Assembly (NCBI GenBank): GCA_012517435.1
Contig: JAAYUY010000058.1
Location: 1-56,561 of the forward strand
Length of the DNA: 56,561 bases
Reading direction: 5' to 3'
Origin: Sphingobacteriales bacterium
GTDB taxonomy: Bacteria > Bacteroidota > Bacteroidia > CAILMK01 > JAAYUY01
The position numbers were made by a program, and so were the translations under genes. Below the pieces are notes generated by a model that ran no database searches, was not told the DNA's origin, and was given only the letters and a program-made list of their open reading frames with translations. Below are positions 19,846 through 31,895 of the stretch, one piece after another (position 1 is the stretch's first letter; each line of letters begins with the position of its first letter).

Positions 19846-20598
19846 TTATTGATTGGTTCTTCTGAATAAGCTGAAACTAAAGCCAAGTCTTTTCTGAAGG
19901 AAATAGAGGATGGAAATTTTAATGACCCCTAAGCCGTAAATCAGACTTCGTCTGAAATTGATAGAGGATGCTTCCTTAAAATATCTGGTAGGGCAGGTAA
20001 TTTCAGCAATTTCATAACCGGAATAAAGAATCTGGGCAGTCAGCTCATTGTCAAAAATAAAATCGTCAGAATTCTTTTGAAAATCAATTTTTTCAAATAC
20101 TTCCCGACAAAAAGCACGATATCCTGTATGATATTCCGACAGCTTTGCCCCGGTCATCAGGTTTTGAAAAAGGGTGAGAATCCTGTTTGCAATGTATTTA
20201 TAAAGTGGCATTCCTCCCTTCAGTGCACCTCTCCCCAAAATCCTTGAGGCATAAACTACTTTGTAGAGTCCACTGGATAAAATTTCTGCCATTGCCGGAA
20301 TTAATCTGGGAGTGTATTGATAATCAGGATGAAGCATGATAATAATATCTCCGCCAAGTTCGAGTGCTTTTTTATAACAGCTCTTCTGATTTCCACCATA
20401 TCCGAGGTTTTTCTGATGTTCAATGATATGCCTGATACCTAATTTTCTGGCAATACTGATGGTTTGATCGGTACTTTTATCATCCACCAGCACCACCTCA
20501 TCCACCAATGGAAAAGGTATTTCTGAAAATGTAGATACCAGTGTTTTTTCTGCATTGAAAGCAGGAAGGACAACAATGATTTTCTGGTGGTTCAGCAT
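19846..20598 (-). CDS. Family 2 glycosyltransferase (dolichyl-phosphate mannosyltransferase-like)
   Basis: 250 residues from the ATG at 20598. GT2 features: KIIVVLPAFNAEKTLVSTFS at the N-terminus, VDEVVLVDDKSTDQTISIAR, KNLGYGGNQKSCYKKALELG and the DxD-like IIIMLHPDYQYTP. Later, TGAKLSEYHTGYRAFCREVF and DDFIFDNELTAQILYSGYEI fit polyprenyl-phosphate glycosyltransferases. No C-terminal membrane segments are evident. It would transfer a sugar from a nucleotide sugar to a lipid carrier or glycan. A TTG-started extension is excluded because the promoter box TACCTTTG at 20621-20614 covers it. It diverges from the ATP-grasp operon. Confidence 0.92.
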   Translation of the reverse strand: MLNHQKIIVVLPAFNAEKTLVSTFSEIPFPLVDEVVLVDDKSTDQTISIARKLGIRHIIEHQKNLGYGGNQKSCYKKALELGGDIIIMLHPDYQYTPRLIPAMAEILSSGLYKVVYASRILGRGALKGGMPLYKYIANRILTLFQNLMTGAKLSEYHTGYRAFCREVFEKIDFQKNSDDFIFDNELTAQILYSGYEIAEITCPTRYFKEASSINFRRSLIYGLGVIKISILYFLQKRLGFSFSLFRRTNQ

Positions 20599-20613
20599 GA
20601 CAACTAAAACATG

Positions 20614-20621
20614 CAAAGGTA
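20614..20621 (-). promoter_or_regulatory. Putative -7 box of the glycosyltransferase gene
   Basis: Minus-strand TACCTTTG, 15 bp from the ATG at 20598. It fixes the start codon choice and implies a very short leader. Confidence 0.6.
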
Positions 20622-20712: not shown

Positions 20713-23700
20713 ATGACAAAGATGGCAGATACCAATAAAGCATTTAACGAGGAAAATATACTGGAACATGCCCACCGGGAGAGATTAAAGGAACTGGCAG
20801 CCATCAACCGGACTTCAGGTTTGCTGAAAGAAGGAAGACCTTTGGATGATACATTTCAGCAATTGTGTTTTTTCCTGCCTGAAGCATGGCAATATCCCGA
20901 ATTTACCTGCATAAGAATACGATACAATGGGAAAGTTTATACCAGCCAGGGATTTCTGGAAACAAAATGGTCGCAGATGGCTGGATTTGAATCTTTTGAC
21001 GGGAAAAAGGGGAGCATTGAGGTTTTTTATACCCGTGAGTTTATGGAGATTGATGAAGGTCCTTTCATGAAAGAAGAACGTGACCTTATTAATAATTTAG
21101 CCGGTTTGATTACAGGCTACCTCAATTCCATGCTGGCCAGGGAGGTCTTCAAAATCAAGGAAGAAAAAGCTGAAAGCTGTATTGTGCCGGGAACATTGAA
21201 ACCCGGACGTAAGCTTCTTCATCAGTTTTTAAATAAAAACAATTACGACAGAGATATTTATCACGACCTGATGCCATATAAGGTTCGGGAAATTCTCCTT
21301 GTGGCTACCCTTTATGATGCTTACAGCATTGAACGTGAAGGGCGATTCTCTGAATATGTACTTGGCGAATATCATCAGCTCAACCTGACTTCACTTCCAC
21401 GGATAACCGGTGTTTCTTCAGAGGAAGAGGTTTTTGAACAACTTTATTCAAAACATTACGATCTGATTATCTTTATGGTTGGTGTGGATAAAAAATTACC
21501 CGTTCGCATCAGTCATCAGGTTCGTGAAAAATTTCCCTACATCCCGATTTTCTTCCTGCTCAACAACAACCAGGATGTTTCCTTGTTTCATGATAAGTCA
21601 TACCCGTTTATTGACCGTCTTTTTGTGTGGAACGGGGATTCGAAGGTGTTTTTTTCCATGATCAAGCATCTGGAGGACAAAATAAACGCTGAAAATGATA
21701 CACGGATTGGGATGGTCAGGGTGATTCTGCTGGTGGAAGACTCCCCGATTTATTATACCCGCTATCTTCCTATGCTTTATTCTGTGGTAATGGAACAAAC
21801 CAAACGTATTATTGATGATGTAACAACAGATGAGCTTTACCGCGTATTGAAACTCAGGGCGCGGCCAAAGATTTTGCTTGCTACCAATTATGAAGAGGCC
21901 ATTGAGATTACTGAAAAATATAAGGATTATCTGCTGTGTCTGATTTCCGACATGAGCTTCAGGAAAAACGGTGTTGATCATCCGATGGCAGGTTACGAAC
22001 TGGTCAGCCATGTGAAAAGCCGGTTTAAAGACCTTCCTGTCATACTTCAATCTTCTGATCCTGAAAACGCCAGGTTAGCCTTCGAACTAAAATCAACTTT
22101 TATAGATAAAAATTCCGACAGCCTTCTGCAGGATTTCAGAAGTTTTATTACCCATTATCTGGGTTTTGGTAATTTTGTTTACCGCAACAGCAAAGGGGTT
22201 CAGATTGCGGTGGCTCATTCCCTGAAGGAATTTGAAAAACAATTAAGAGTGATCCCTGACGATTCTTTGCTTTACCATGCAAGACGCAATCATTTTTCGC
22301 TCTGGCTGATGGCAAGAGGCGAAATACAGGTAGCAAAAATTATCAATCCTGCTAAAGTTTCTGATTTTAAGAGTCCTCAGGAATTGCGTGAATATCTGAT
22401 TGACGTGATTCAGAAATTCCGTAATGAGCAGAATCAGGGAAAAGTGATTCCGTTCGAAGAATCAGCTATCAATGACGAGAGCAATATTCTGCTGTTGACA
22501 GAAGGAGCATTGGGAGGAAAAGGACGAGGCCTTGCTTTTGTCAATACGCTTATCTATAATTTTGATTTTCATCAGCTTATACCTAACATTAATATACGAA
22601 CCCCGAAAACTTCCATCATTGGTGCCGATGAATTCGAGTATTTTCTTGATCGCAACAATCTCAGAGAGGTGCTCGATGAACACATTACTGAATATGAATT
22701 CATCAGGGAAAATTTTGCTAAAGGACATCTCTCGGAAGGTCTGATAAAAAAACTGAAACTTATCCTGAAAAACATTACAAAACCGCTGGCAATACGTTCT
22801 TCCGGACTATTTGAAGACTCCCTGGCTCAACCTTTTGCCGGAATTTTCGAAACCTATATATTGCCCAACAATCATCCCGACCTGAATGTCAGGCTGGAAC
22901 AGTGTATGTCAGCCATCAAGCTGGTTTATGCTTCTGTTTATTCTCCTGTAGCCCGTGCCTATATCGAAGCAGTTCATTATAAAATCGAAGAGGAGAAAAT
23001 GGCAGTTGTAATTCAGGAACTTGTTGGGAATCAGTTTGATGAATATTATTATCCGCATATCAGCGGAGTCGCCCAGTCGTACAATTTTTATCCGTTCGGG
23101 CACATGAATCCGGAAGATGGATTTGCAGTTGCAGCTCTTGGGTTGGGAACCTATGTCGTTCAGGGCGAAAAAGCCTATCGCTTTTGTCCGAAATATCCGA
23201 CCCTCGACATCAACACCCCTAAAGATCAGTATAAAAACTCCCAGGTTTATTTTTATGCTGTAAACCTGAAAAACAAAGATATTAACCTGATGGAAGGAGA
23301 GGATGCCGGACTTATAAAACTTGATATTGATGTAGCTGAAACGCATGGTAGCATTAAACATCTTGCTTCTGTTTACGACCGCGACAACGAGCGTATAGTC
23401 CCCGGCTTGTCTGAATATGGTCCAAGGATTATCAACTTTGCAGATATACTTAAATATCAGTATATTCCGCTTGCCGAAACCATTGCAGATATTCTGGAAA
23501 TTGTTCAGGAAGCGCTGGGCTCACCGGTCGAAATTGAATTCGCTGTGGATTTGACAAAAGACAATAAAAACAGGGCTTCCTTTTATCTGCTTCAGATCAA
23601 ACCGCTTTTCGGCAGTGCTCAGGATTTCGAATTTGAGGCAGACAACATCCCAAAAGATGAAATCATTCTTTATACGGTTAAAGGGATGGGAAATGGAATG

Positions 23701-24162
23701 ATTGACAATTTGACTGATGTTATTTATGTGGATTATCAGGACTTTGATAAATCAAAAACACGGGAAATGGCAGCCGAAATTGATAAAATAAACAGCAGGA
23801 TGGTCGAACAGAATAAAAATTATATTCTGATAGGCCCTGGACGTTGGGGAACACGCGATCAATGGATTGGAATTCCGGTTGCATGGCCTCAGATTTCCAA
23901 TGCCAAAGTGATTGTTGAAACAAGTTTTGAAGACTTTCCTCTTGATGCTTCTTCCGGTTCCCATTTCTTTCATAATGTAACTTCAATGAATGTGGGTTAT
24001 TTTACTATTCAGCAGGAATATGAAAATCAATGGATTAACTGGGATTTACTGAAAAAAGGAAAACTGGTCAGTAAGTATAATTTCTTTACCCATGTCTGTT
24101 TCGAACAACCACTCAAGGTGATGATGGATGGTAAAAAAAGAATTGCTGTCATAAAAGTGTAA
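20713..24162 (+). CDS. Receiver/ATP-grasp fusion protein with PPDK_N domain, GAF-like N-terminus
   Basis: 1149 residues. Domains in order: a sensor-like domain (about 20-150) also found in the next gene; a degenerate receiver (about 190-325); a receiver (about 335-485) with acidic LLVEDSP, candidate phosphoacceptor Asp near 412 in LISDMSF and Lys in FIDKNSD; then a PEP-synthase-type ATP-grasp domain (about 590-970) with GGKGRGLAF, AIRSSGLFEDSLAQPFAGIF, GLGTYVVQG and EIEFAVD ... LLQIKPL, so the ATP-binding residues look intact. The C-terminal 170 residues contain the distinctive GPGRWGTRDQWIGIPVAWPQ. The phosphohistidine and PEP/pyruvate TIM-barrel domains of PEP synthase are absent, so it cannot be a PEP synthase. 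First gene of a four-gene operon. It probably transfers phosphate from ATP to an unknown acceptor under receiver control; this is inference. Confidence 0.85.
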   Translation: MTKMADTNKAFNEENILEHAHRERLKELAAINRTSGLLKEGRPLDDTFQQLCFFLPEAWQYPEFTCIRIRYNGKVYTSQGFLETKWSQMAGFESFDGKKGSIEVFYTREFMEIDEGPFMKEERDLINNLAGLITGYLNSMLAREVFKIKEEKAESCIVPGTLKPGRKLLHQFLNKNNYDRDIYHDLMPYKVREILLVATLYDAYSIEREGRFSEYVLGEYHQLNLTSLPRITGVSSEEEVFEQLYSKHYDLIIFMVGVDKKLPVRISHQVREKFPYIPIFFLLNNNQDVSLFHDKSYPFIDRLFVWNGDSKVFFSMIKHLEDKINAENDTRIGMVRVILLVEDSPIYYTRYLPMLYSVVMEQTKRIIDDVTTDELYRVLKLRARPKILLATNYEEAIEITEKYKDYLLCLISDMSFRKNGVDHPMAGYELVSHVKSRFKDLPVILQSSDPENARLAFELKSTFIDKNSDSLLQDFRSFITHYLGFGNFVYRNSKGVQIAVAHSLKEFEKQLRVIPDDSLLYHARRNHFSLWLMARGEIQVAKIINPAKVSDFKSPQELREYLIDVIQKFRNEQNQGKVIPFEESAINDESNILLLTEGALGGKGRGLAFVNTLIYNFDFHQLIPNINIRTPKTSIIGADEFEYFLDRNNLREVLDEHITEYEFIRENFAKGHLSEGLIKKLKLILKNITKPLAIRSSGLFEDSLAQPFAGIFETYILPNNHPDLNVRLEQCMSAIKLVYASVYSPVARAYIEAVHYKIEEEKMAVVIQELVGNQFDEYYYPHISGVAQSYNFYPFGHMNPEDGFAVAALGLGTYVVQGEKAYRFCPKYPTLDINTPKDQYKNSQVYFYAVNLKNKDINLMEGEDAGLIKLDIDVAETHGSIKHLASVYDRDNERIVPGLSEYGPRIINFADILKYQYIPLAETIADILEIVQEALGSPVEIEFAVDLTKDNKNRASFYLLQIKPLFGSAQDFEFEADNIPKDEIILYTVKGMGNGMIDNLTDVIYVDYQDFDKSKTREMAAEIDKINSRMVEQNKNYILIGPGRWGTRDQWIGIPVAWPQISNAKVIVETSFEDFPLDASSGSHFFHNVTSMNVGYFTIQQEYENQWINWDLLKKGKLVSKYNFFTHVCFEQPLKVMMDGKKRIAVIKV

Positions 24163-24171
24163 AAATTTCCT

Positions 24172-25023
24172 ATGAAAGATATTATTAAAGACAGGCTGAA
24201 TGAAAGGGCAAAAGAACTGAATTGCCTGTATCAGGTGATTGATTTGCTACGCCATGAGAATTCATCATTAAACTATGTTTTTCAACAACTTGTAAAAATT
24301 ATTCCTCCTGCATGGCAATATCCTTCCGTTTGTTGTGTACGAATTACCTATGAAGATGAAGTGTTTAAATCCGAAGAATTTCTGGAAACTTTATGGGTGC
24401 AGTCTGCTGATATAGTAGTGGACGACAAGGTAATGGGGAAAATAGAGGTTTTTTATATGCAGTTCATCCGCCTTATCAATGGCAGCCAGTTTTTGCCTGA
24501 AGAACAGAAGTTGTTGAATGTCATTGCTTTAAAGATAAGTGAATACTTGTTTTCCCGTAAATTGCAAAAAACGATTGAGCTTTTGCAAAAAGAGAGTCAT
24601 CTGTTGACGCATGAAATGGAAAGCAATGAGATATTGCCTGTTTTTCACGACCAGCATTGGAAATGGCGATACAGAATGGTTGAAAAACTGGTCGGAAAAC
24701 TGGACAGGGAAAAAACCGGAGTTGTTGCCTGTTATGTAATTGGAAGTACAAAAAACGCAACGGCAGGGCCAAAAAGCGATATTGATCTCCTGATTCATTT
24801 CAGGGGAAATGACCTGCAACGAAATGCACTTTTGGCTTATATCTCTGGTTGGAGTCATGCCCTCGCTGAATACAATTATGAAAAAACCGGTTGCCTGTCG
24901 GAAGACGGATTGATTGATTTACATATCATTACAGATGAAGATATTGAGAAGAAGACATCTTATGCCATCATGATAGGATCAACCGAAAATTCGGCACGAA
25001 AAATTCCATTTGCAGGAGAATAA
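24172..25023 (+). CDS. Nucleotidyltransferase-domain protein with shared sensor-like N-terminus
   Basis: 283 residues. Residues about 5-140 are homologous to the N-terminus of the preceding ATP-grasp protein: PPAWQYPSVCCVRITYEDEV and then SEEFLETLWVQSA here, against PEAWQYPEFTCIRIRYNGKV and TSQGFLETKWSQMA there. The C-terminal part is a Pol-beta-type nucleotidyltransferase domain, with CYVIGSTKNATAGPKSDIDL giving the GS motif and D-x-D near residues 190-208, and a possible third Asp in DGLIDLHIITDED. The domain is of the minimal (MNT-like) type. It lies 9 bp after the first ATP-grasp gene. The shared N-terminal domain suggests both proteins respond to the same signal or partner. The target of nucleotidyl transfer is unknown. 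Confidence 0.85.
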   Translation: MKDIIKDRLNERAKELNCLYQVIDLLRHENSSLNYVFQQLVKIIPPAWQYPSVCCVRITYEDEVFKSEEFLETLWVQSADIVVDDKVMGKIEVFYMQFIRLINGSQFLPEEQKLLNVIALKISEYLFSRKLQKTIELLQKESHLLTHEMESNEILPVFHDQHWKWRYRMVEKLVGKLDREKTGVVACYVIGSTKNATAGPKSDIDLLIHFRGNDLQRNALLAYISGWSHALAEYNYEKTGCLSEDGLIDLHIITDEDIEKKTSYAIMIGSTENSARKIPFAGE

Positions 25024-25027
25024 GCTC

Positions 25028-25870
25028 ATGATAATTCTTTTTACATCGGATCTCCACGGAAAAATTCAGCGCTATAACGAATTGTTCAGGCAGGTTGAAA
25101 ATATCAGGCCTGATGTGGTTTTGCTGGGCGGTGATTTGCTTCCTCATGTCAGAAAGATTGATTTTCATGAGTTTGTTGAGGATTTTCTGATAAAAAATTT
25201 TGACAGTCTGAGATCAGGGATGAAAGATGAATATCCTTTTGTGGGCCTGATTTTGGGAAATGATGACCCGGGGATTGCTGAATCCATTTTTATAGATGCC
25301 CAGAAAAGCGGAATATGGACCTATCTTCACATGAAAATGGTTCATTTCAAAGGAATTGATTTCTACGGATATTCTTTTGTTCCGCCAACGCCCTTTTTGC
25401 TGAAAGACTGGGAAAAATACGATGTTTCGCGCTATGTTGATCCGGGTTGTGTTCCTCCTGATGAGGGGTTCAGAACCAAAGAGCCTGATTACGACACCGA
25501 ATTTGCTACCATAGCAGACGACCTTGAACGACTCTCCGGCCATGCTGATGTTTCTCAGGCTGTTTTTTTATTTCATTCGCCTCCATACCAGACAAAACTC
25601 GACCGGGCTGCCTTCGATGGAAAAATGATAGATCATATTCCGCTGGATGTCCATGTCGGAAGTATAGCTATCCGAAGGTTTATCGAAAGCAGGCAACCAT
25701 TTCTGACTTTGCATGGCCATATTCATGAATCTACCTTTCTGACGGGTCATTTTTCCGACAAACTGGGAAAAACATGGATGTTTAACGGAGCAAACCATAC
25801 CCATGAACTTCCCCTTATTGTGATTGATACGGATTCCCCGGAAAATACAAAACGTTTGTTGTACCCATAA
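25028..25870 (+). CDS. Calcineurin-like metallophosphoesterase
   Basis: 280 residues from the ATG at 25028, preceded by CAGGAG at good spacing; an upstream TTG would overlap the previous gene. The metal-binding motifs appear in order: FTSDLHGKIQRY (D-x-H), VLLGGDLLPH (GD), LILGNDDPG (a GND variant of GNH), FLFHSPPY (H) and LTLHGHIHES (GHxH), then GANHTHELPLIVID. The chemistry is hydrolysis of a phosphoester; the substrate may be a nucleotide, a cyclic nucleotide or a phosphorylated product of its neighbours. It lies 4 bp after the nucleotidyltransferase gene and 10 bp before the second ATP-grasp gene, so it is firmly part of the operon. Confidence 0.9.
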   Translation: MIILFTSDLHGKIQRYNELFRQVENIRPDVVLLGGDLLPHVRKIDFHEFVEDFLIKNFDSLRSGMKDEYPFVGLILGNDDPGIAESIFIDAQKSGIWTYLHMKMVHFKGIDFYGYSFVPPTPFLLKDWEKYDVSRYVDPGCVPPDEGFRTKEPDYDTEFATIADDLERLSGHADVSQAVFLFHSPPYQTKLDRAAFDGKMIDHIPLDVHVGSIAIRRFIESRQPFLTLHGHIHESTFLTGHFSDKLGKTWMFNGANHTHELPLIVIDTDSPENTKRLLYP

Positions 25871-25880
25871 TAAATTTAAA

Positions 25881-28874
25881 ATGCCATTTTCAAAGTATTA
25901 CCGATTTTCAAGCAAAATTGACGAAACTTCATTTCACCTCCTGATGAAAAAACGCATTCATCAGGTGTTACTTATTTCAAGTGCTTACGATTCCTTTATG
26001 CTTGAAGAAGATGGTCGCATTGACGAGCAGATTTTCAATGAATATACTTCACTTAGCCTGCGTTATCCACCGACTTTCATCCATGCCACCTCTGCCGAAT
26101 CGGCTTTTCAAATCCTTGCTTCAGAAAAAATAGATCTGATTATCAATATGTTAAGTATTGAAGACATGGATCCGTTTGAGCTGGCAAAAAATATAAAAGG
26201 TAAATATTCATGGATTCCCATTGTCGTACTGACACCTTTTTCACGTGAGGTTTCGCTTAAGCTCACCAATGAAGACCTTAGTGCGGTCGATTATGTGTTT
26301 TCCTGGCTTGGTAATGCTGATTTGCTGCTTGCTATCATCAAACTTATCGAAGACAAGATGAATGTCGAAGATGATGTGATTAATGTGGGAGTTCAGACCA
26401 TTATTCTGGTGGAAGATTCCATTCGTTTTTACAGCAGCTATTTGCCTTTGCTTTATAAAATTATTTTCCGTCAGAGCAGGGAGTTTATCACCGAAGCCCT
26501 GAACGAACACCAAAAAATGCTACGACTGAGAGGGAGGCCAAAGGTTCTGCTGGCCACCAACTACGAGGAAGCCATCACTTTTTATGAGAAATATAAAAAC
26601 AATCTGCTGGGAGTCATAACCGACATTAGTTATAAAAGGAATAATGAGACTGATAAGCTGGCGGGTGTAAAACTATGCAGAAAATTGAAGGAAGAGGATT
26701 TGTACCTGCCGGTATTACTTCAGTCGTCTGAACTTGAAAATGAAAAATATGCCAGAGAGCTTGATGTCAAGTTTTTGTATAAGGAATCGAAAACACTGCC
26801 ACTCGAATTACGCGATTATATCAATGAATATCTGGCTTTCGGCCCTTTTATATTCAGAGATCCCAAGACAAAGGAAGAAATAGGAAGAGCCATTGACCTT
26901 CAGGATCTGCAGCATAAACTGTTTGACATTCCGGATGATAGTTTCATTTATCATATTGAAAGAAATCATTTTTCCAAATGGTTGAATGCCAGGGCATTGT
27001 TCCCGATTGCTGACAAGCTGAAGTACATGACCATGGAAGATTTCAACAAAGACCTCGATCAGATCAGGCGATACATTTATGATGCTATTGTAGCTTACAG
27101 ATTAAACAAAGGGAGGGGTATTATTGCCGATTTTGACAGGACCAGGTTTGATGAATTTACTATTTTTTCCCGCATCGGAGAAGGAAGTATTGGTGGTAAA
27201 GCCCGCGGCCTTGCCTTTATTGATTCAATGATTAAAAAACATGACATTATTGATAAATTTCAGGATGTTATTATCACCATTCCCCGGACAGTGGTCATTT
27301 CCACTGATATTTTTGATGAGTTTCTCGAAATCAATAATTTATGGGAAATTGCCTTGTCCGATTTACCTGATGAGGCAATATTGTCTCATTTTTTAAATGC
27401 CCACCTGCCTGTAAAAATCCATGCCGACCTGCTGGCATTTTTGTCTGTTATTAAAAACCCTATAGCCGTTCGTTCCTCAAGTTTGCTCGAAGATAGCCAT
27501 TATCAGCCTTTTGCAGGGGTTTATTCCACTTATATGGTCCCCAATGTTAAAACCGATGAAAGAACTTTTCTCGAACTGGTCAGTAATGCCATCAAAGCCG
27601 TCTATGCCTCCGTGTTTTACAAATCAAGCAAAGCCTATATGCAAGCCACTTCGAATGTGATTGATGCCGAAAAGATGGCTATTGTTTTACAGGAAGTGTG
27701 TGGTAATCAATATAATGGAAAATTTTATCCAACTCTTTCGGGGGTGGCTCGCTCCATCAATTTCTACCCCATAGATCCTGAAAAATCAAAAGACGGAGTG
27801 GCCAATGTTGCCTTTGGACTTGGAAAATATATTGTGGATGGAGGGGTTTCTCTAAGATTTAGCCCGAAACACCCCAAACGGATTATTCAGCTGTCTTCTA
27901 CTGAAAATGCACTCAGGGAAACGCAAAAATATTTTTATGCCCTTGACATGGAAAATACCCGCTTTATTCCCTCCACTGATGATAGCTGCAATATGTTGAA
28001 ACTTAAAATTTCAGAAGCTGAAGCGCATGGTTCTCTTAAATATGTGGTTTCTACCTATGATTTTCAAAATGATATCATTCGCGATGGTTATTTTCAGAAT
28101 GGGAAAATCATCGTAACTTTTTCACCTATATTGAATCATCATCTCTTCCCTTTGTCTGATATTCTGAGCTATTTACTGGAAATAGGGCAAAAAGAGATGA
28201 ACAAACCCATTGAGATTGAGTTTGCCGTCAACCTCAATGTCCCGAAAGACAGCCCCAAAATATTCAACTATCTCCAGATCCGGCCTATCGTTCAGACAGA
28301 CGAAAAACTGAACTGCAAAATAGAAGATATTGAACCCAACGAGTGTATTATTTATTCAAACTCAGCATTGGGAAACGGGATTATTAACGACATTTACGAT
28401 TTTATTTATGTAAAACCTGATACTTTCAAATCATCAGCAACCAAACAAATTGCCGAAGAAATAGAAAAACTGAATGCGAAAATGGCAGATGAAAAAAGGT
28501 ATTTTGTGCTGGTTGGTCCGGGCCGCTGGGGCAGCAGCGATCCATGGCTGGGTATTCCGGTCAAGTGGGCTCAGATTTGTCAGGCAAGAATTATAGTCGA
28601 ATCTGGCCTGTCAAGTTTTCGTATCGATCCAAGCCAGGGGACCCATTTCTTTCAGAACCTGACTTCTTTCAGGGTGGGATATTTTACCATTAATCCGTTT
28701 ATCAATGATGGTTATTTTGACCTTGATTATCTGAAAAGTAAAGAATGTGTTTTTGAAAATCAGTATCTGAAGCACATTCGTTTTCAGAATCCGATTAAAA
28801 TAAAAATTGACGGACAAAAAAATATTGGCGTAGTTTTAAAGGAAGAATACATTGATCCTCAGAATGTTATTTAG
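25881..28874 (+). CDS. Second receiver/ATP-grasp (PPDK_N) fusion protein
   Basis: 997 residues from the ATG at 25881 (MPFSKYYRF), just after the stop of the metallophosphoesterase gene. Paralogue of the 20713 protein without its N-terminal sensor-like domain. A degenerate receiver (about 30-165) is followed by a receiver with ILVEDSI near 178, candidate Asp in VITDISYK near 246 and Lys in LYKESK near 300. The ATP-grasp domain, about 430-810, has GGKARGLAF, AVRSSSLLEDSHYQPFAGVY, GLGKYIVDGG and EIEFAVN ... YLQIRPI. The C-terminal module has GPGRWGSSDPWLGIPVKWAQ near 879. As in its paralogue, no phosphohistidine or PEP domain follows. Two paralogues in one operon may form a heteromer; this is inference. 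Confidence 0.85.
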   Translation: MPFSKYYRFSSKIDETSFHLLMKKRIHQVLLISSAYDSFMLEEDGRIDEQIFNEYTSLSLRYPPTFIHATSAESAFQILASEKIDLIINMLSIEDMDPFELAKNIKGKYSWIPIVVLTPFSREVSLKLTNEDLSAVDYVFSWLGNADLLLAIIKLIEDKMNVEDDVINVGVQTIILVEDSIRFYSSYLPLLYKIIFRQSREFITEALNEHQKMLRLRGRPKVLLATNYEEAITFYEKYKNNLLGVITDISYKRNNETDKLAGVKLCRKLKEEDLYLPVLLQSSELENEKYARELDVKFLYKESKTLPLELRDYINEYLAFGPFIFRDPKTKEEIGRAIDLQDLQHKLFDIPDDSFIYHIERNHFSKWLNARALFPIADKLKYMTMEDFNKDLDQIRRYIYDAIVAYRLNKGRGIIADFDRTRFDEFTIFSRIGEGSIGGKARGLAFIDSMIKKHDIIDKFQDVIITIPRTVVISTDIFDEFLEINNLWEIALSDLPDEAILSHFLNAHLPVKIHADLLAFLSVIKNPIAVRSSSLLEDSHYQPFAGVYSTYMVPNVKTDERTFLELVSNAIKAVYASVFYKSSKAYMQATSNVIDAEKMAIVLQEVCGNQYNGKFYPTLSGVARSINFYPIDPEKSKDGVANVAFGLGKYIVDGGVSLRFSPKHPKRIIQLSSTENALRETQKYFYALDMENTRFIPSTDDSCNMLKLKISEAEAHGSLKYVVSTYDFQNDIIRDGYFQNGKIIVTFSPILNHHLFPLSDILSYLLEIGQKEMNKPIEIEFAVNLNVPKDSPKIFNYLQIRPIVQTDEKLNCKIEDIEPNECIIYSNSALGNGIINDIYDFIYVKPDTFKSSATKQIAEEIEKLNAKMADEKRYFVLVGPGRWGSSDPWLGIPVKWAQICQARIIVESGLSSFRIDPSQGTHFFQNLTSFRVGYFTINPFINDGYFDLDYLKSKECVFENQYLKHIRFQNPIKIKIDGQKNIGVVLKEEYIDPQNVI

Positions 28875-28980: not shown

Positions 28981-30108
28981 ATGATTCTGGGAATACTCAA
29001 AGAAAAAGAGCCTGAAAAAAGAGTGGCATTGCTGCCCGAAGATGCCGCTACGCTGGTTAAAATGAAAGTTCATGTCAGAATAGAATCAGGGGCGGGAGAA
29101 ACAGCTTTTGCCAGCGACAACGACTATGTAGCTCAGGGCGTTGAAATAACTGACAGAAACACCATTTTGACACAAAGCGATATAGTCATCTGTATCAATA
29201 CGCCCGAAAAATCGGAAATGGACAAAATCGGAGAGCAAAAAACCATCATGTCGGTGTTCAATCCCCTGTCAGATGTCGAAACGGTTAAATACCTGAAAAA
29301 CAAAAACCTGACAGCATTCAGTTTTGACATTATTCCGCGTACAACCCGTGCTCAGGCCATGGATATCTTATCATCAATGGCAACTGTTTCAGGATACAGG
29401 GCTGTGCTCGATGCTGCCCGCTTTTTACCGACTTTCTTCCCTATGTTTATGACCGCTGCCGGTACCATCAAACCTGCAAAGGTGCTGATACTCGGAGCCG
29501 GTGTGGCAGGCCTGCAGGCACTTGCTACTGCCCGTAAACTGGGCGCCCAGGTTGAAGTATTCGATGTCAGGTCGGCTGTCAGGGAAGAAGTGAAAAGCCT
29601 TGGCGGAAAATTCGTGGAGGTTGAAGGGGCAGTTGAAGATAAAGCAGCCGGAGGTTATGCGGTTGAGCAAACGGAAGAATATAAAAGAAAACAGCAGGAA
29701 GCTATTCATAATCATGCAGTTAAATCGGATGTCATCATTGCCACTGCTCAGATTCCCGGTAAAAGAGCCCCTATACTGCTGAAGAAAGAAACGGTTGAAG
29801 CCATGAAACCCGGTAGTGTGATTATTGACCTCGCTGCTTCGACAGGTGGTAACTGCGAACTGACCGAAAATGCCAGTACAGTTGTGAAAAATGGTGTAAC
29901 CATTATTGGCAAATCAGATTACCCTGCCACCATGCCTGTTGATGCCAGCCGTATGTTCGGGAAAAACATTATTAATTTCCTGAAACTGCTGATCGATAAG
30001 GAAGGAAATTATAACATTAATCTGGAAGATGATATTGTTAAAGGCACCTGTGTTACTCATTCGGGAAATATCATCAGCGAAAGAATAAAATCAGTTGTTG
30101 AACCTTAA
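28981..30108 (+). CDS. pntAA: NAD(P) transhydrogenase alpha subunit, part 1 (NAD-binding)
   Basis: 375 residues: the soluble domain I of proton-translocating transhydrogenase, which binds NAD(H) and exchanges hydride with NADP bound to PntB. The N-terminal alanine-dehydrogenase-like fold opens with LGILKEKEPEKRVALLPEDA. The Rossmann fingerprint VLILGAGVAGLQALATARKL is near residue 170, followed by VEVFDVRSAVREEVKSLGG. Later blocks TAQIPGKRAPILL and MKPGSVIIDLAASTGGNCEL are typical. It stops before the membrane part, which is a separate gene 12 bp downstream, so the alpha subunit is split as in many bacteria. Confidence 0.97.
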   Translation: MILGILKEKEPEKRVALLPEDAATLVKMKVHVRIESGAGETAFASDNDYVAQGVEITDRNTILTQSDIVICINTPEKSEMDKIGEQKTIMSVFNPLSDVETVKYLKNKNLTAFSFDIIPRTTRAQAMDILSSMATVSGYRAVLDAARFLPTFFPMFMTAAGTIKPAKVLILGAGVAGLQALATARKLGAQVEVFDVRSAVREEVKSLGGKFVEVEGAVEDKAAGGYAVEQTEEYKRKQQEAIHNHAVKSDVIIATAQIPGKRAPILLKKETVEAMKPGSVIIDLAASTGGNCELTENASTVVKNGVTIIGKSDYPATMPVDASRMFGKNIINFLKLLIDKEGNYNINLEDDIVKGTCVTHSGNIISERIKSVVEP

Positions 30109-30119
30109 TTATTAAAGCC

Positions 30120-30431
30120 ATGCAGGAGATATTTCAGTTTTTATACGTTAACAAAGAGATGTTGTTCATCATCGCCCTGTCCATTTTACTGGGCGTTGAG
30201 GTTATTTCACATGTTCCGGCTATCTTGCACACCCCGTTGATGTCGGGAGCAAATGCCATTCATGGAGTCGTTATCATCGGAGCCATTATTGTGATGGGAC
30301 ATGCCGAAACAACTGCCTCTATCATCCTTGGATTTTTTGCAGTCATCCTTGGAACACTCAATGTGGTTGGCGGTTTTGTGGTTACAGACCGTATGCTTGA
30401 GATGTTTAAGAAAAAACCTAAAAAAGACTAA
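30120..30431 (+). CDS. pntAB: NAD(P) transhydrogenase alpha subunit, part 2 (membrane)
   Basis: 103 residues with three to four membrane segments: the N-terminal part of the proton channel domain II. The family block SHVPAILHTPLMSGANAIHG then VVIIGA is present, with TLNVVGGFVVTDRMLEMFKK at the end. It is encoded between pntAA (12-bp gap) and pntB (4-bp gap). With PntAA it forms the functional alpha subunit. Confidence 0.97.
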   Translation: MQEIFQFLYVNKEMLFIIALSILLGVEVISHVPAILHTPLMSGANAIHGVVIIGAIIVMGHAETTASIILGFFAVILGTLNVVGGFVVTDRMLEMFKKKPKKD

Positions 30432-30434
30432 GTT

Positions 30435-31895
30435 ATGAACGAGATAATAAATTTTACTAAAGAACTGTCGTTTTCTTCCGGACAGTCTTTGCTCGAAATG
30501 ATTTACCTGATTGCTTCTGTATTGTTTGTATTCGGACTTAAAATGCTCAGCCATCCTGAAACAGCGAGGAAAGGAAATTTATGGGCTGCGTTCGGGATGA
30601 CGCTTGCAATTGCAGGAACTATTTTATTCCATAAAAAAGACGGTCAGGGTATTCACAACATAGGATGGATTATTGGTGGCATTGTTATCGGAACTTTAAT
30701 CGGATGGATAGTGGCCAAACGTGTTAAAATGACCGCCATGCCACAGCTGGTTTCTTTATTTAACGGAATGGGAGGTGCATGTGCTGCTTTGATTTCGCTG
30801 ATGGAATATCCTCATCTTCATGTGGTGGGAGGGCACTACCAGGCAGGTATTGTCATCACCATCGTTTTAGGTGCTATGATTGGAACAGTTTCATTTACTG
30901 GAAGCATGATAGCTTTCGGAAAACTGAATGGAAATCTGGGCGATATCAGAAATAAAATCATGAGGCCCATTAACATTCTGATCCTGCTCGTTTTACTTGC
31001 CCTGATTATTGCCATCGTGTTTTTCCCGAAATATGTTGATCACGAAGGTTATCAGAGCCTCGATATGACGCTTCTGTGGGTATTATTCGGACTTTCTTTT
31101 GTCTATGGAATTTTGTTTGTCAGCCCGATAGGAGGAGCAGATATGCCTGTGGTTATTTCACTGCTGAACTCATTTACAGGACTTGCTGCTGCTTTTGGTG
31201 GGTTTCTGTATCACAACCAGGCTATGCTTACAGGAGGTATTCTGGTCGGATCCTCAGGAACCATTCTGACCATTCTCATGTGCAATGCGATGAACCGTTC
31301 CCTTATCAATGTCATTGCTGGCGCTTTTGGGGGTGGAGGCAGTGCAGCTAATCAGGAAACCGGTACCGTTAAGGAAATTACTCTTTCGGATGCCGCTGTA
31401 TTACTGAGTTATTCACAGAAAGTGGCAATTGTTCCCGGCTATGGACTGGCAGTAGCTCAGGCTCAGCATATCTGCCACGAACTTGATAAAATGCTGGAAG
31501 AGAAAGGAGTGGAAGTCAGATATGCCATTCATCCGGTAGCAGGACGTATGCCCGGACACATGAATGTCTTGCTGGCTGAAGCTGATGTTCCCTATGAAAA
31601 ACTGATTGAAATGGATGATATCAATCCGGATATGCCTAATATTGATGTTGTGGTAATTGTAGGAGCCAATGATGTGGTCAATCCGGCTGCCGAAGACGAT
31701 CCTTCTTCTCCTATTTATGGCATGCCTATTATCAAGGCAAGAGAAGCTAAAAATGTCATTGTGATGAAAAGAGGAATGGGAAAAGGCTACGCTGCTATTG
31801 AAAATATGCTGTTTTTTCATCCAAAAACAAGGATGTTGTTTGGCGATGCTAAATCTACCATCCAAAAACTGATTGAGGAAATAAAGAATCTTTAG
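30435..31895 (+). CDS. pntB: NAD(P) transhydrogenase beta subunit
   Basis: 486 residues: eight or nine membrane segments of the proton channel, followed by the soluble NADP-binding domain III. The membrane part has FNGMGGACAALISLMEYPHL and SLLNSFTGLAAAFGGFLYHN. The NADP domain has VAIVPGYGLAVAQAQH, HPVAGRMPGHMNVLLAEADV, VIVGANDVVNPAAEDDPSSP then IYGMPI, and VMKRGMGKGYAAIENMLFF. The enzyme uses the proton motive force to make NADPH from NADH. Last gene of the operon; no strong terminator was seen after it. Confidence 0.97.
   Translation: MNEIINFTKELSFSSGQSLLEMIYLIASVLFVFGLKMLSHPETARKGNLWAAFGMTLAIAGTILFHKKDGQGIHNIGWIIGGIVIGTLIGWIVAKRVKMTAMPQLVSLFNGMGGACAALISLMEYPHLHVVGGHYQAGIVITIVLGAMIGTVSFTGSMIAFGKLNGNLGDIRNKIMRPINILILLVLLALIIAIVFFPKYVDHEGYQSLDMTLLWVLFGLSFVYGILFVSPIGGADMPVVISLLNSFTGLAAAFGGFLYHNQAMLTGGILVGSSGTILTILMCNAMNRSLINVIAGAFGGGGSAANQETGTVKEITLSDAAVLLSYSQKVAIVPGYGLAVAQAQHICHELDKMLEEKGVEVRYAIHPVAGRMPGHMNVLLAEADVPYEKLIEMDDINPDMPNIDVVVIVGANDVVNPAAEDDPSSPIYGMPIIKAREAKNVIVMKRGMGKGYAAIENMLFFHPKTRMLFGDAKSTIQKLIEEIKNL

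Follow-up and report, generated by a model that had tools for sequence, protein, structure and literature searches.

A receiver, ATP-grasp, nucleotidyltransferase and phosphoesterase operon of Bacteroidota as a candidate control module at glutamate dehydrogenase

Many Bacteroidota, gut and environmental species included, have glutamate dehydrogenase (GDH) as one of their main routes for assimilating ammonia. In B. fragilis, the enzyme is reportedly inactivated in a reversible manner (work ascribed to Yamamoto et al., 1987), and Baggio and Morrison (1996) are said to have described, for B. thetaiotaomicron, a gene that lies downstream of gdhA and acts in trans. These reports concern an unexplained activity switch of GDH within the phylum of the module described here. 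Protein D of the present locus is not claimed to be gdhX of B. thetaiotaomicron; BT_1971 is annotated as a catalase and nothing was found under the name gdhX.

Among the described systems, the PII - GlnD - GlnE cascade ties a Pol-beta-type nucleotidyltransferase to the control of ammonia assimilation and is in this respect analogous to protein B. It differs in that the writer B and the eraser C would be separate proteins and in that the ATP-grasp and C-terminal domains have no counterpart. Neither PII (PF00543) nor GlnD_UR_UTase (PF08335) nor GlnE domains were detected in the genome that contains the operon (G000, 97% complete). In Actinobacteria, PknG is a Ser/Thr kinase and GarA a small protein that acts by binding. 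In this system, one regulator governs GDH as well as the 2-oxoglutarate dehydrogenase complex (PMC5448819). The present module is linked to GDH and to 2-oxoacid:ferredoxin oxidoreductase, a likeness to PknG - GarA that is an analogy only, and no homology to A-D is claimed. PEP synthase, PPDK and rifampin phosphotransferase share with A and D an ATP-grasp domain with its ATP-binding residues and are the nearest solved structures. In contrast to these enzymes, A and D have no detectable swivel domain or PEP/pyruvate barrel; they carry receivers in front of the ATP-grasp domain and a C-terminal domain (CTD) without known relatives behind it, and they stand in a GDH context.

The window, i.e. the whole analysed stretch of 56,561 nucleotides from a Sphingobacteriales bacterium, contains the four genes A, B, C and D on the + strand. 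Their ORF positions confirm the four genes and the gaps of 9, 4 and 10 bp given in the initial annotation. Gene A (20713..24162, 1149 aa) was delimited as an ORF and by homologue alignment and has the domain order sensor-like module, pseudo-receiver, receiver, PPDK_N ATP-grasp and CTD. Its N-terminal sensor-like module lies at 20722..21141 and its CTD, with the motif SSGSHFFHN, at 23626..24159. Gene B (24172..25023, 283 aa) encodes a sensor-like module and a Pol-beta-type nucleotidyltransferase with the residues G191S192...D203xD205 and D249, gene C (25028..25870, 280 aa) a calcineurin-like metallophosphoesterase. Gene D (25881..28874, 997 aa) encodes a pseudo-receiver, a receiver (26388..26834), a PPDK_N ATP-grasp domain (27186..28334) and a CTD (28290..28871). 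The domain calls that had been made from visible motifs were recovered by Pfam: PPDK_N in A (1.7e-41) and D (1.2e-40), the receiver in D (1.7e-9), NTP_transf_2 in B (2.1e-6) and Metallophos in C (4.7e-7). The receiver match of A (0.0071) was below the cut-off. Promoter and terminator signals scored only modestly higher than in shuffled sequence and are given no weight here. Directly 3' of the operon and outside the module, a complete NAD(P) transhydrogenase is encoded by PntAA, PntAB and PntB (28981..31895, + strand), a possible source of NADPH for GDH.

The anatomy initially assigned to the two large proteins was correct, but it missed the N-terminal module of A and B and the CTD of both large proteins. 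It had also named tandem receiver-like domains. Both are present, while only the second is canonical: receiver 1 is a pseudo-receiver with Met in place of the phospho-Asp in 80 of 86 D-type and 26 of 27 A-type homologues. Receiver 2 has the phosphorylatable Asp, acidic pair, Ser/Thr and Lys of a two-component receiver, and almost every A-type and D-type protein has the full set (E178, D179, D248, S282 and K301, with D248 of D encoded at 26622-26624). In one locus (L180:9322-11394), a PAS histidine kinase and a LuxR-type response regulator lie between two GDH-D pairs and are candidate partners of this receiver. The N-terminal module comprises approx. 140 residues, is common to A and B (residues 1-140) according to BLAST and is absent from D. 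It had no match in Pfam and appears GAF-like and sensor-like by its pattern alone. In the own genome, it occurs in only three ORFs, namely A, B and a Crp-type regulator (contig C35, L227:3880-6561) whose gene is divergent from a GDH gene by 192 bp. The same regulator adjoins GDH in G135 and G522 and lies behind D in G523.

A CTD profile matched 72 of 393 genomes of the phylum, and the D query found strong homologues in 5 of the 149 genomes sampled in the class, own genome aside. In a single scan, 80 loci were obtained from named genomes, almost all of them in Bacteroidales or Bacteroidetes; they were drawn from at least 529 confirmed stretches and many of them lie on short contigs. Three architectures occur: the A/D type with ~1000 aa, a short type S with ~585 aa (ATP-grasp and CTD) and a type F with ~1060 aa. 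Of 101 loci, 27 contain A and D in tandem. No description of an ATP-grasp-CTD family was found in the literature, and the module can be considered undescribed in the searchable part of it.

The link of this family to GDH across the phylum is strong. In the first set of 41 loci, picked only by the query protein or the CTD, GDH was the immediate neighbour in 32 and was found within three genes in 33. Among the 80 named loci, GDH was found within three genes in 24 and 2-oxoacid:ferredoxin oxidoreductase in 13, often directly upstream. With a few GDH genes in some 3000, chance proximity is expected at less than 1% per locus, which is a rough null that ignores relatedness; the related genomes in the linkage counts are not independent. 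The identities of GDH and oxidoreductase were checked with Pfam and NCBIfam, and the GDH genes at these loci include the NADP-type as well as another subfamily. NCBIfam does not decide the 2-oxoacid, which we infer to be 2-oxoglutarate. Several arrangements are repetitive, such as GDH-D-GDH-D (L190), D-GDH-D-GDH (L189) and GDH-S-F with overlaps of 4-7 bp between S and F. GDH proximity is common in the family, not universal. GDH is missing from the vicinity of many D-type loci, particularly in the named set, and also from that of the more divergent fusions in L181 and L183. In the window, no GDH lies within three genes and transhydrogenase genes follow the operon; the two GDH genes found in the own genome are located on the other contigs C35 and C209. 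The uncharacterised signalling system first suggested for the four genes is supported as far as a regulatory module is concerned, but the linkage to GDH and oxidoreductase, which gives its likely biology, had been missed.

Two further loci deserve mention. L093 joins the two architectures, with GDH, S-type, F-like and D-type genes and a 950-aa ORF in one locus. In L041 (3402-6268) and similar named loci, oxidoreductase genes immediately precede A or D, and at several loci they overlap with it or lie within 30 bp.

Type F, found in distant relatives, is a fusion of sensor-like module, ATP-grasp, CTD and nucleotidyltransferase. Both ends of B are homologous to it (33-43% at the N-terminus, 34% at the C-terminus), so that B looks like F without its middle and F like the ends of B around the A/D core. 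Full-length B was found within the order only in the window and in G135, while G522 contains A and D without B or C. Of 388 genomes, 18 contain an orthologue of C (E < 1e-25). Apart from the own genome, C adjoins the fusion gene F in 16 of 17, at a distance of 1.0-1.7 kb from the F CTD; the remaining genome has C close to the start of a contig and F on a different contig, at its end. The catalytic GS...DxD motif was kept in all nine fetched F loci with C compared to nine of 17 complete loci without C (one-sided Fisher about 0.016, calculated by hand with relatedness ignored). Therefore, C goes with an intact nucleotidyltransferase and seems to track this domain rather than the ATP-grasp proteins. 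F-type loci in which no nucleotidyltransferase motif was found are L181, L183, L184, L200, L203 and L209, most of them without adjoining GDH.

Since the domains of B are fused to the ATP-grasp/CTD core and C is encoded beside this fusion, A, B, C and D appear to form one module, although the operon of most relatives lacks B and C. The four-gene block as a conserved unit was rejected: A-D is the common pair, B is rare and C is tied to the fusion. The neighbourhood test proposed in the initial annotation had a divided outcome, with a widespread A-D pair and a four-gene block that is not conserved. Its idea of a single regulatory system that combines a nucleotidyl writer with a phosphoesterase gained support from the fusion and the place of C; the chemistry is putative.

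The domains and conserved residues, the A-D pairing, the fusion of the B domains, the association of C with the fusion and the GDH linkage, all taken from sequence, suggest that the module probably switches GDH or its pathway according to nitrogen supply. A-B-C-D may be a control module for nitrogen and carbon status at the glutamate/2-oxoglutarate node that most likely acts on GDH, a reading to which we give an even chance. Nitrogen and carbon signals would be received by the sensor-like module that A shares with B and, through phosphorylation, by receiver 2 in both large proteins. D, possibly with the altered A as its partner, would then use its PPDK-type ATP-grasp and ATP to phosphorylate an acceptor, perhaps the invariant CTD histidine. 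The A-D pair together with the B nucleotidyltransferase would alter GDH activity by covalent modification or binding and, in some species, 2-oxoacid:ferredoxin oxidoreductase activity likewise. B would modify GDH, A or D, and C would take off this modification, a role that is proposed for C from co-occurrence. GDH as the target, a post-translational effect, nucleotidylation of a protein by B and its reversal by C are thus putative steps. More tentatively, the module could represent a separate class of nitrogen control, in which receiver-gated PPDK-type ATP-grasp-CTD proteins, a nucleotidyltransferase and a dedicated phosphoesterase reversibly switch GDH and replace PII/GlnD/GlnE in many Bacteroidota. 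The family tied to GDH is a concrete candidate for how GDH is switched, with named residues in D248, H922, the Arg or Lys of the QxRP motif and D203/D205 of B.

The alternative that fares best is signalling by a small molecule only, which we consider unlikely but still the most serious competitor. The proteins would make or use a nucleotide or phosphorylated metabolite on a glutamate or 2-oxoglutarate cue and C would hydrolyse this molecule, while GDH itself would not be acted on. It would suit the nucleotidyltransferase domain of B, which has no evident protein-substrate partner, the metallophosphoesterase family to which C belongs and the Crp-type regulator encoded beside GDH, which combines a cNMP-binding domain with the module found in A and B. 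However, this regulator was not seen outside the family to which the window belongs, and GDH genes that are paired one to one with ATP-grasp-CTD genes suggest a partner at the protein level.

Less probable still is a divergent enzyme of the PEP synthase or rifampin phosphotransferase kind, whose CTD would be a diverged phosphohistidine swivel handing phosphate on to a glutamate-pathway metabolite, with GDH as a mere metabolic neighbour. The ATP-grasp domain is indeed closest to these enzymes. The AF2 model of the D domain matched rifampin phosphotransferase (1.2e-14) and PPDK (4.3e-8) in Foldseek, and the predicted structure of ATP-grasp and CTD together (pLDDT 89.9, pTM 0.87) had rifampin phosphotransferase as its best match. 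The ATP-binding residues, initially noted as kept, proved invariant in 113 homologues (G438, G439, K440, R531, E537, E780 and Q799, D numbering). The QxRP motif separates the two types, with Arg in 86 of 86 D-type and Lys (QxKP) in 27 of 27 A-type proteins; the Arg is at the position that we take to be R337 of PPDK. Pfam found neither a PEP-utilizers nor a PEP/pyruvate-barrel match in A or D, and both proteins end after the CTD. The absence of phosphohistidine and PEP domains claimed at the outset held up in Pfam, hhalign and Foldseek.

The CTD is a conserved domain of approx. 180 residues after the ATP-grasp in A and D. Its invariant features are GRWG, E907 and SxG[TS]HFF with its histidine (113-homologue comparison), in D together with D887 and as SQGTHFF with H922 (28644-28646). 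Both proteins have the arrangement that defines the family, an ATP-grasp followed by a CTD with GRWG and SxG[TS]HFF. The CTD was predicted with confidence (pLDDT 92.8, pTM 0.90), and in this model a helix that lies between two strands begins with the invariant His, an order that looks swivel-like by eye. The CTD was nevertheless rejected as a phosphohistidine domain (PF00391): suggestive as motif and strand order are, hhalign gave a probability of 0.1% with narrow and broad profiles, no better than for unrelated control domains. The CTD had no match in Pfam and its model no significant match to PDB and viral structures in Foldseek, with no swivel domain among the listed matches. The invariant His may still be analogous to that of a phosphohistidine domain. 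Receivers, nucleotidyltransferase fusion and sensor-like module also suggest regulation rather than a plain phosphotransferase.

A defence or toxin-antitoxin island of MNT-type nucleotidyltransferase and phosphoesterase is highly improbable and was rejected on genomic context, since weak matches to PADLOC candidate systems (B to PDC-S09, 1e-5; C to PDC-S10, 2.6e-11) and to the MntA antitoxin model (19.8 bits, below the cut-off of 60) are opposed by the recurrent association with core nitrogen metabolism genes, the lack of a toxin partner, with no match in the neighbours A and C to the HEPN toxin of a type VII (MntA) system, and the lack of any defence model match for A and D.

Upstream of A, the window contains a divergent glycosyltransferase gene (19846-20616), and L035 and L230 have a similar gene at the corresponding position.
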